Source: a virus
Direction: 5' to 3' (one strand)
DNA: 22,387 nt
IMG/VR virus record: IMGVR_UViG_3300017788_000197
Coordinates: 1 to 22,387 of that record
Shown here piece by piece: positions 10,474 to 15,623 of this stretch. The translations under genes and the position numbers were made by a program. The notes beneath the pieces were generated by a model, which worked only from the letters and a program-made list of their open reading frames with translations, was not told the origin of the DNA and searched no databases. Position 1 is the stretch's first letter. Every line of letters begins with the position of its first letter.

Positions 10474-10475
10474 AA

Positions 10476-10499
10476 GCCCTCCTTCGCGAGGGCTTTTTT
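10476..10499 (+). terminator. Intrinsic terminator
   Basis: GCCCTC (10476-10481), loop CTTCGC, GAGGGC (10488-10493), then six Ts. It separates the short unit from the tRNA array promoter that starts two bases later. Confidence 0.9.
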
Positions 10500-10500
10500 G

Positions 10501-10529
10501 TTGACAAAGTGATGAGTGCCAGATAGTAT
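10501..10529 (+). promoter_or_regulatory. Sigma70-type promoter of the tRNA array
   Basis: TTGACA at 10501-10506, 17-base spacer, TAGTAT at 10524-10529, directly behind a terminator. The predicted start near 10536 coincides with the first base of the pseudoknot described next. Confidence 0.85.
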
Positions 10530-10801
10530 CTGATACTCGGTAAACGCAACGAGGGCGTGTCCTGCACTAGATTAGGACGAACGGTCGGAACCGAGGATGA
10601 AAGTTGCGGCGAGAACGCAGCGAGTAAAATCTGGGTCAAGAAACATCAGAGTAACATCTGATGTTTTCTAGTGTGCATGAGGCGCTACCGCTGACGCGGG
10701 CGTGCGGTCGCTACTACGGCGAAACAATTGTTACCAATTTCCTTAGTAGAGGAGAGAGACAATATTTGTTGACCCATGCACACTAGAAAACATCAGAGTA
10801 T
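10530..10801 (+). ncRNA. Structured 5' leader or non-coding RNA upstream of the first tRNA
   Basis: No protein gene fits here. Visible pairings: CTCGGT (10536-10541) with ACCGAG (10590-10595), crossed by CGCAAC (10545-10550) with GTTGCG (10603-10608), which makes a pseudoknot. GTCCT/AGGAC (10559-10563/10574-10578) form a hairpin inside it. AACATCAGA (10642-10650) pairs with TCTGATGTT (10657-10665). A perfect 23-base inverted repeat (10657-10679 with 10775-10797) encloses about 95 bases. GGGTCAA (10633-10639) can pair with TTGACCC (10769-10775), giving competing folds. I do not recognise a known RNA family. Confidence 0.55.
10657..10797. repeat. Perfect 23-base inverted repeat, arms 95 bases apart
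   Basis: Arms at 10657-10679 and 10775-10797 are exact reverse complements; each contains TTTTCTAGTGTGCATG or its complement. The right arm ends five bases before tRNA-fMet. As RNA this is a long double strand that RNase III could cut. Confidence 0.9.
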
Positions 10802-10877: not shown

Positions 10878-11021
10878 AATTGGCATCACTCATGAGGTGA
10901 TGCCCTAGGATGCTTGTCAATGAAGCCTAGCCAGGTGGAGGCAAGTTAGTTGGGTCGCGCAATCCAATGAAGTCGCAAATGAGCGGTGGCACCGACATTT
11001 GTGGAGTCCTAGTGATAATGA
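10878..11021 (+). other. Structured spacer between tRNA-fMet and tRNA-Ser(TGA)
   Basis: 144 bases with no tRNA or ORF. GGCATCAC (10882-10889) pairs with GTGATGCC (10897-10904). CAAATG (10976-10981) pairs with CATTTG (10996-11001) around CGGT/ACCG (10984-10987/10991-10994). Likely a folded RNA or processing spacer; no family recognised. Confidence 0.45.
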
Positions 11022-11115: not shown

Positions 11116-11191
11116 GGGGCGTTCGTCTAGAGGCCTAGGATCGCGGGCTTTCAATCCGCTTACAGGGGTTCGAATCCCCTACGCCCTACCA
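11116..11191 (+). tRNA. tRNA-Glu(TTC)
   Basis: Acceptor GGGGCGT/ACGCCCT, anticodon loop CTTTCAA, T-loop TTCGAAT, CCA encoded. Confidence 0.92.
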
Positions 11192-11359
11192 ATTTAGTCG
11201 CACACAGTCTACAGCGGAGGTACCTGGGATGTGTGGAGCAGAAATGCTTGATCAAATGATCTCGGCTAAGCAAGTTTTGCTAGTTTTTGTAGAAAACTAG
11301 CCGTACATGGTCGCGAAAGAAATAGAATGGGTATGTGCCATGGCATCCCATTCACTAAT
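11192..11359 (+). other. Structured spacer after tRNA-Glu(TTC)
   Basis: No ORF of note. GCTAGTTTT (11279-11287) pairs exactly with AAAACTAGC (11293-11301) over a five-base loop. GAATGGG (11325-11331) pairs with CCCATTC (11347-11353) around a second short stem. No T-run after either, so these are not terminators. Leads into the tRNA-like element. Confidence 0.45.
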
Positions 11360-11470
11360 ATCTTCATCACTCTGTGCATCCGGCGCGTCCGCGCTGATAT
11401 GCTGGGGCATATCCTGTCCATGCTGGGCGGGAGGTAGTTCGATTCTACCGATGCACAGAGTCATGAAGAT
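11360..11470 (+). ncRNA. tRNA-like structure with extended acceptor helix, no CCA
   Basis: GTGCATC (11374-11380) and GATGCAC (11450-11456) form a seven-base acceptor next to a perfect T-arm, GGTAG-TTCGATT-CTACC (11433-11449). A GCGC/GCGC D-like arm (11383-11386/11391-11394), a GATAT/ATATC arm (11396-11400/11409-11413) and a variable arm (GTCC/GGGC) fill the middle. The acceptor helix runs on to eleven base pairs, then after a 2x2 internal loop to eight more (ATCTTCAT 11360-11367 with ATGAAGAT 11463-11470). The D-loop is only four bases, the middle loop is eight bases and no CCA is encoded, so it is not an ordinary tRNA. Confidence 0.6.
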
Positions 11471-11475
11471 GTTAC

Positions 11476-11550
11476 GGGTCGTTAGCTCAGCGGTAGAGCG
11501 TCTGTTTTACACGCAGAATGTCGGCGGTTCAATCCCGTCACGACCCACCA
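11476..11550 (+). tRNA. tRNA-Val(TAC)
   Basis: Acceptor GGGTCGT/ACGACCC, anticodon loop TTTACAC, CCA encoded. Starts five bases after the tRNA-like element. Confidence 0.92.
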
Positions 11551-11554
11551 GTTT

Positions 11555-11630
11555 GGATCCTTAGCTCAATTGGCAGAGCATCTGACTCTTACTCAGAGGG
11601 TTCTCGGTTCAAATCCGAGAGGATCCCCCA
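11555..11630 (+). tRNA. tRNA-Lys(CTT)
   Basis: Acceptor GGATCCT/AGGATCC, anticodon loop CTCTTAC in stem TCTGA/TCAGA, CCA encoded. The discriminator base is C, unusual for Lys. Confidence 0.9.
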
Positions 11631-11911
11631 ATAACAATAAAGCGGCTTTATGATCGTGCTTCGGCACACAGACGGTGGGACTGCTGTGGAAAGTGTCCTG
11701 AGGCTTCGTGCCTCGCCGAACAAATTGCAAGTGTGGATGTAGTGAAAGCAAGGCCTCGAAAACCTTGTGAGACAACTAGCGCGGCTGGGTGCTGCACTGC
11801 CATGTGAATGGAGCTATTGTCAAGTAGCTACTAGCACCACGTACCTCTAACCTGAGCTAGACAGGCGAAATGATCCGGAATGAGAGAGGCCGGATGCTTG
11901 CAAACAATTAC
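11631..11911 (+). other. 281-base structured spacer before tRNA-Ala
   Basis: No coding frame or tRNA fits. Hairpins are dense: GTGC-TTCG-GCAC (11656-11667, the very stable UUCG tetraloop), GAGGC-TTCGT-GCCTC (11700-11714), and further AAGG/CCTT, GCTA/TAGC and CCGG/CCGG pairs. I tested it by eye against RNase P RNA and tmRNA signatures and found no match. A non-coding RNA is plausible. Confidence 0.45.
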
Positions 11912-12662: not shown

Positions 12663-12732
12663 GCTACTGTCGGTGTTGTTGGGAAACACAGATGGACAAC
12701 ACTAGGACGCCGTTCGAATCGGAGCAGTAGCA
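12663..12732 (+). pseudogene. tRNA-like remnant lacking a D-arm
   Basis: Acceptor GCTACTG (12663-12669) pairs fully with CAGTAGC (12725-12731), followed by A and no CCA. A T-arm with loop TTCGAAT is present (stem CGCCG/CGGAG, one mismatch). Only three bases separate the acceptor from a five-base stem GTGTT/AACAC with loop GTTGGGA, which would show anticodon TGG (Pro) with U before and G after it. An 18-base segment follows. A competing stem GTGTTGT/ACAACAC exists. Either a decayed tRNA-Pro or a structural mimic. Confidence 0.5.
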
Positions 12733-12735
12733 TCT

Positions 12736-12825
12736 GGAGAATAAACTGTCGAGGAGACAGACTTGTTTGCTAAACAATGGGAGCCCCTAAAAGGGCTTGA
12801 GTTTCGAATACTCTGTTCTCCGCCA
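12736..12825 (+). tRNA. tRNA-Ser(GCT)
   Basis: Class II with long variable arm (AGCCC/GGGCT), anticodon loop TTGCTAA, discriminator G, CCA encoded. D-arm CTGTC/GACAG. Confidence 0.9.
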
Positions 12826-12828
12826 TTT

Positions 12829-14169: not shown

Positions 14170-14247
14170 GGGGGTATAGCTCAGTTAGTTTAGAGCGCAC
14201 ACTTGATAAGTGTGAGGTCGTAGGTGCAAATCCTACTATCCCTACCA
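14170..14247 (+). tRNA. tRNA-Ile(GAT)
   Basis: Acceptor GGGGGTA/TATCCCT, anticodon loop TTGATAA in stem CACAC/GTGTG, CCA encoded. The T-loop is TGCAAAT: position 55 is G instead of the almost invariant U. Confidence 0.9.
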
Positions 14248-15549: not shown

Positions 15550-15623
15550 GCGTGGTTGGTATATTGATTGTGCCTCGGCCTTCCAAGCCGATGAAACGAG
15601 TTTGATTCTCGTACCACGCTCCA
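15550..15623 (+). tRNA. tRNA-Gly(TCC)
   Basis: Acceptor GCGTGGT/ACCACGC, anticodon loop CTTCCAA in stem TCGGC/GCCGA, discriminator T, CCA encoded. Confidence 0.92.

Follow-up and report, generated by a model that had tools for sequence, protein, structure and literature searches.

What does the spacer that separates tRNA-Glu from tRNA-Val encode in this viral tRNA array? The window, the 22,387-nt stretch of IMG/VR record IMGVR_UViG_3300017788_000197 analyzed here, carries an array of about 30 tRNAs. An initial inspection of the letters (the sequence-only reading) had placed a tRNA-like structure with an extended acceptor helix at 11360–11470, between genuine tRNAs. ARAGORN calls tRNA-Glu(UUC) and tRNA-Val(UAC) on its two sides, which confirms that location. 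The structure at 11360–11470 is real, but it is larger than first noted and its arms were mislabeled. The Glu-Val spacer of this T4-like phage array encodes a folded RNA of about 195 nt that extends upstream to about 11279, beyond the 11360 start first given. The phage is described as T4-like because the 197-kb record of the related contig L114 encodes a gp23-type capsid protein. In L114 the entire 199-nt Glu-Val spacer is conserved, and the RNA therefore includes the 5' hairpin and the probable H-type pseudoknot that precede the region first noted. At its 5' side the L114 RNA directly adjoins the tRNA-Glu CCA, and its 3' end stops a few nucleotides short of tRNA-Val. At the head of the array, a promoter-like site is preceded by a terminator-like site at 10474–10495.

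The RNA is laid out as a hairpin (P1), the probable pseudoknot (P2), and then a five-way domain whose closing helix counts 12 + 8 pairs (up to 24) around a single C-C mismatch (Table 1). The minimum free energy in the window is −67.9 kcal/mol compared to −39.8 ± 4.0 for shuffled sequences (z = −7.1), and none of 200 shuffles was as good; the L114 copy has a fold z of −6.1. We infer a probable H-type pseudoknot at P2, which minimum free energy folding does not predict, and the P2 loop UGGUCGCGARAGAAA is nearly invariant. As first described, the T-arm (GGUAG UUCGAUU CUACC) abuts a long helix and there is no CCA. The long helix also stands, but its count does not: there are 12 contiguous pairs (ACUCUGUGCAUC/GAUGCACAGAGU), a C-C mismatch, and then 8 pairs. 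The 2 × 2 internal loop drawn earlier is actually a 1 × 1 C-C mismatch, since the adjoining A-U can pair. Four weaker outer pairs (UAAU/GUUA) are added in the window only.

Table 1. Positions in the window of the spacer RNA parts, the flanking tRNAs, and the array head.
Feature	Position	Strand	Remarks
Promoter-like site TTGACA-17-TAGTAT, array head	10501–10529	+	Consensus scan; not proof of use
tRNA-Glu(UUC), upstream neighbor	11116–11191	+	ARAGORN; common to window, L114, L196, L275, L276; altered in L003 (read by eye)
5' hairpin P1 (GCUAGUUUU UGUAG AAAACUAGC)	11279–11301	+	Position kept in L003, L114, L196; inner pairs in 4/4
Stem P2, probable H-type pseudoknot (11303–11308 with 11333–11338)	11303–11338	+	Paired in window, L003, and L196; a single mispair in L114
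Stem P3 (GAAUGGG 11325–11331 with CCCAUUC 11347–11353)	11325–11353	+	Two-sided changes A-U to U-A, G-C to A-U
Outer closing helix, 5' strand (UAAUAUCUUCAU)	11356–11367	+	8 core pairs from 11360, invariant in 4 intact copies
12-bp acceptor plus extension, 5' strand (ACUCUGUGCAUC)	11369–11380	+	All pairs kept; sole variation U-A to U-G, L196
Added hairpin CGGCGC GUCC GCGCUG (first labeled D-arm)	11381–11396	+	24-nt net palindromic insertion here in L003
D-arm equivalent, loop UGGG 11403–11406 (UAGA in L114, L196)	11397–11412	+	Double change, A-U to C-G; loop and T-loop covary
Anticodon-arm position CCUGUCCA UGC UGGGCGGG	11413–11431	+	G-C to A-U double change, U-G to U-A
T-arm GGUAG UUCGAUU CUACC (T-loop UGCAAUU in L114, L196)	11433–11449	+	4/5 pairs invariant; outermost lost in L114, L196
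3' strand, acceptor extension plus outer closing helix	11450–11474	+	Ends 1 nt 5' of tRNA-Val
tRNA-Val(UAC), downstream neighbor	11476–11550	+	ARAGORN

Intact copies are present in four related phage contigs, namely the window, L003, L114, and L196, and L194 carries a cut-off copy. The L003 copy was found by a 16-base scan, and the L114 and L196 copies were found via neighboring genes and the conserved upstream stretch. All intact copies sit between tRNA-Glu(UUC) and tRNA-Val, both of which are altered in L003 as read by eye. Paired cells amount to 98% across the four copies compared to 32–49% in slid controls. Double-sided pair changes occur four times (twice in P3 and once each in the D-like arm and the anticodon-position arm) versus at most once in the slid controls; the intact copies form only two sequence groups, so there are few independent compensatory events. 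The 20 pairs of the closing helix are nearly invariant in sequence and thus cannot test the structure, and this near-invariance hints at a constraint at the sequence level. In L003, the insertion permits an alternative fold that is more stable, by about 2 kcal/mol, than the fold that bears the D-arm, which is perhaps an early step of decay. INPHARED, which holds the named phages, contains no homolog of the spacer RNA, and covariance model R1 gave no match beyond noise in 28 other phage records. A candidate homolog in L004 was a chance 16-base match. Candidate homologs in host genomes were rejected as well: the 99 inverted-repeat matches in genome contigs had been selected by the repeat itself, and the best two by the model fold as long hairpin-like helices without a T-arm.

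The arms of the five-way domain were assigned from the tRNA elbow. The middle hairpin loop and the T-loop occur in two combinations, UGGG with UUCGAUU and, in L114 and L196, UAGA with UGCAAUU. In tRNA numbering, G18-U55 becomes A18-G55 and G19-C56 is kept. The comparison set was 474 distinct tRNAs from the fetched phage loci. The D-loop carries GG in 419 of the 424 tRNAs with a TTC T-loop versus 4 of the 10 with TGC (Fisher p = 1e-8 as a plain count), and these ten mostly have YAG or AAG where GG is expected. TTT T-loops (n = 10 tRNAs) are mostly paired with G18-A19. The same D-loop/T-loop exchange separates the tRNA-Met of the window from that of L114 and L275. The coupled 18/55 exchange identifies the middle UGGG hairpin as the D-arm equivalent; therefore, the GUCC-loop hairpin before it, which the sequence-only reading had called the D-arm, is an added arm, and the former variable arm is the hairpin at the anticodon position. 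This pattern supports a tRNA-style elbow with 18–55 and 19–56 contacts in the RNA, which would mimic the elbow without the full tRNA layout as viral tRNA-like structures do. These two contacts also change together in phage tRNAs (G-U to A-G and G-C to A-U), and in the window such changes are found in tRNA-Ile and tRNA-Gly(tcc), with examples at 14170–14247 and 15550–15623.

Not all relatives have kept the RNA. L275, L277, and L278 hold a 76-nt decayed remnant in which the T-arm is gone and the stems are broken, L276 has a stub consisting of the last bases 5' of tRNA-Val, and in the more distant L220 tRNA-Glu and tRNA-Val lie side by side with no RNA between them. The RNA is therefore dispensable and accessory. 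The remnants provide a natural control, in that copies free of constraint lose their pairing and the four intact ones have kept it. The sequence-only reading took the element to be maintained rather than decayed and named observations in relatives that would speak against it: a normal tRNA at this place, which would show decay, or loss of pairing elsewhere. A normal tRNA at this place is found in no relative, but decay is seen in the three remnants and the stub. For the window copy the claim holds, with pairing kept via double changes and the elbow via the coupled 18/55 change, and the RNA appears to be constrained where it is intact.

The possibility that the element is an unusual but active tRNA of the tRNA-Sec or allo-tRNA kind follows from the arm labels first given, which imply a 6-bp D-stem, a 4-nt D-loop, and a long variable arm. 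ARAGORN names the element 'tRNA-???(gg)', and its drawing broadly agrees. The 6-bp stem and 4-nt loop have the size of a tRNA-Sec D-arm, and a long acceptor branch is common to the element and these tRNAs. However, the GUCC loop lacks GG and receives the large insertion in L003, there is neither a UCA nor any other proper anticodon loop, and the acceptor side, although joined to a T-arm, runs for 12 continuous pairs plus 8 and on into the leader without a CCA end, compared to acceptors of 7 bp in tRNA and 8–9 bp in tRNA-Sec or allo-tRNA. At the anticodon position the loop CAUGCUG has A33 instead of U33 and closes to a UGC triloop (CGC in L003) on 8–9 pairs; this hairpin is therefore non-decoding. 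The Rfam tRNA model (RF00005) run on 11356–11474 gave no match at gathering or at E ≤ 10, the Rfam tRNA-Sec model gave none at E ≤ 10, and no known Rfam family matched at E ≤ 10. An active tRNA is thus extremely improbable. No tmRNA was found in the window by ARAGORN or Rfam, and no tag frame is kept across the homologs. A small protein encoded by the open reading frame at 11307–11564 was rejected, the frame being different in L114 and interrupted by stops in L196. Phage tRNA-Ala(UGC) genes with a short D-arm (L005, L009, L019, L084, L090, and L098) resemble the element in that their acceptor is followed at once by a UGGG-loop hairpin, the hairpin after it carries UGC, and the T-loop reads UUCGAUU, but the pattern used to retrieve them already demands some of these features. 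Their acceptors are 7 bp long and contain G3-U70, their anticodon loops are proper ones, and most of them end in CCA. Assignment of the element to this class was rejected: its acceptor lacks G3-U70, its anticodon loop lacks U33, and the search pattern favored such matches.

Two further known systems are comparable. The rnaC and rnaD RNAs of T4 are small stable RNAs encoded beside tRNAs, seen by Northern blot, and with no known function (PMC9697503, PMC12685909); a search of the literature for their role returned only 'unknown function'. Like the element described here, they are small structured RNAs without CCA in the tRNA cluster of a T4-type phage, and rnaC ends in a T-arm (CCGGG UUCGAAU CCCGG). 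In contrast, rnaC has neither the 20-bp closing helix nor a UGGG-type arm, and expression has been demonstrated for the T4 RNAs whereas that of the present element is predicted. Model R1, run with filters off on L274 1909–2172, detected no homology to rnaC/rnaD beyond noise. The plant-virus tRNA-like structures of the TYMV type also keep the tRNA elbow while the remainder departs from tRNA. They form the 3' terminus of RNA genomes and undergo aminoacylation. Unlike them, the element lacks CCA and lies inside the array of a DNA phage.

We favor the reading that the spacer RNA derives from a tRNA, does not decode, and is a stable RNA comparable in kind to T4 rnaC/rnaD, freed by processing of the flanking tRNAs and probably docking on an elbow-binding partner. 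We give this reading a probability of about one half. The RNA would be co-transcribed with the tRNAs of the array. Because it abuts the tRNA-Glu CCA and nearly abuts tRNA-Val in L114, ordinary tRNA processing would release it: the RNase P cut at tRNA-Val would set its 3' end, and the 3'-processing that matures tRNA-Glu would free its 5' side. The 20–24-bp closing helix, standing in place of a CCA end, may protect both termini. With less certainty, the RNA would act in trans as a tRNA mimic that presents its elbow to a partner. RNase P, RNase Z, the ribosome, and tRNA-modifying enzymes all recognize the elbow. Viral RNAs are known to copy this feature (PMC4810234). The partner may be RNase P, the ribosome, or an enzyme that modifies tRNAs, or else a host defense factor directed at tRNA. 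Charging, EF-Tu binding, use by a synthetase, and decoding are unlikely because there is no CCA and no decoding loop. A role as an RNase P inhibitor is disfavored because the phage needs RNase P for about 30 tRNAs of its own. A more specific proposal, which we regard as possible but on balance unlikely, is that the RNA keeps only the elbow and a long capped helix, serves as a decoy or docking site for a host factor that reads the elbow, and is one of several exchangeable noncoding RNA modules in phage tRNA arrays; the factor may be a tRNA-directed defense nuclease or RNase P, for example.

The main rival is a processing or stability role in cis, in which the 20–24-bp helix would be an rRNA-style RNase III stem in a polycistronic tRNA precursor and its contents a stable plug. 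The long near-perfect helix does lie directly 5' of tRNA-Val, and the other folded spacers of the array keep this idea alive: a second multi-branched RNA with a 23-bp closing helix lies directly 5' of tRNA-Met (10657–10798), and it keeps that helix in L114 while its inside is replaced. RNase III stems are free to vary in sequence, yet the closing helix here is invariant; the elbow covariation and the inner double changes are left unexplained; and L220, L275, and L276 manage without the element beside the same tRNAs. We regard the cis role as possible but on balance unlikely. A degenerate, functionless pseudo-tRNA gene on its way to being lost is a somewhat poorer prospect. It would fit the decayed or deleted copies, the missing CCA and decoding loop, and the high turnover of the array (altered T-loops in L003 tRNAs), but intact copies hold their pairing and their coupled 18/55 change, and the long closing helix is a gain rather than a loss. 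Its strands are identical between the window and L114, while tRNA-Val is only 80% and tRNA-Lys 72% alike.

A DNA-level inverted repeat, such as a mobile element end or a recombination or replication site that merely resembles an RNA, could account for the invariant sequence of the 21-bp near-perfect repeat and for array modules that appear swapped between phages, as with the RNA before tRNA-Met. It is very unlikely, since the spacer RNA is single copy in the 197-kb L114 record, its inner stems covary, and its T-arm and elbow are kept. Phage tRNA arrays are read as tRNAs separated by spacers, but one spacer of this array encodes a conserved folded RNA, apparently with a tRNA elbow, that has no role in translation. 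Should this RNA be made and bind a factor that handles tRNAs, it would inform both the role of T4 rnaC/rnaD and the ways in which phages respond to tRNA-directed defenses. The coupled 18/55 and 19/56 changes offer a simple test of elbow mimicry in other phage RNAs.

Other spacers of the same array also look like folded RNAs. The RNA at 10657–10798 has a fold z of −8.8; its inside is common to the window, L275, and L276 and different in L114, L194, and L196 between near-identical closing strands. A copy of one of the closing strands (AACATCAGAGTAAC) lies just upstream, making an alternative pairing possible. At the start of the array (10537–10640), a pseudoknot might arise from CTCGGT/ACCGAG and CGCAAC/GTTGCG; L114, L275, and L276 are similar, and Rfam found nothing in this segment. 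The Met-Ser spacer (10900–11015) is 82% identical to L114, with CTAGGA/TCCTAG closing and apparent compensatory changes, and is seemingly a structured RNA. The Lys-Ala spacer (11640–11900) is hairpin-rich and, where it aligns with L114, 77% identical; its counterparts in L114 and L276 finish with a T-arm-like hairpin, GTTGG TTCGATT CCAAC. Departures from standard tRNAs are also seen. On the minus strand at L196:4329 and at the matching place in L114 there is a Glu-like tRNA that lacks CCA and has a closed anticodon loop of 4–6 nt; ARAGORN names it tRNA-??? in L196. The tRNA-Glu and tRNA-Val of L003 (2910–2990 and 3250–3320) have the T-loops GGCAGCA and GCAGTAC, without the UUC motif. A likely tRNA-Ser(GCT) at 12733–12826 is missed by ARAGORN in the window, but the program calls it at the corresponding site of both L003 and L114. 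Two more folds, at 11195–11272 (TTAGTCG..CGGCTAA) and 12663–12731 (GCTACTG..CAGTAGC), resemble a cloverleaf but lack a normal anticodon arm, and the latter is conserved in L003.
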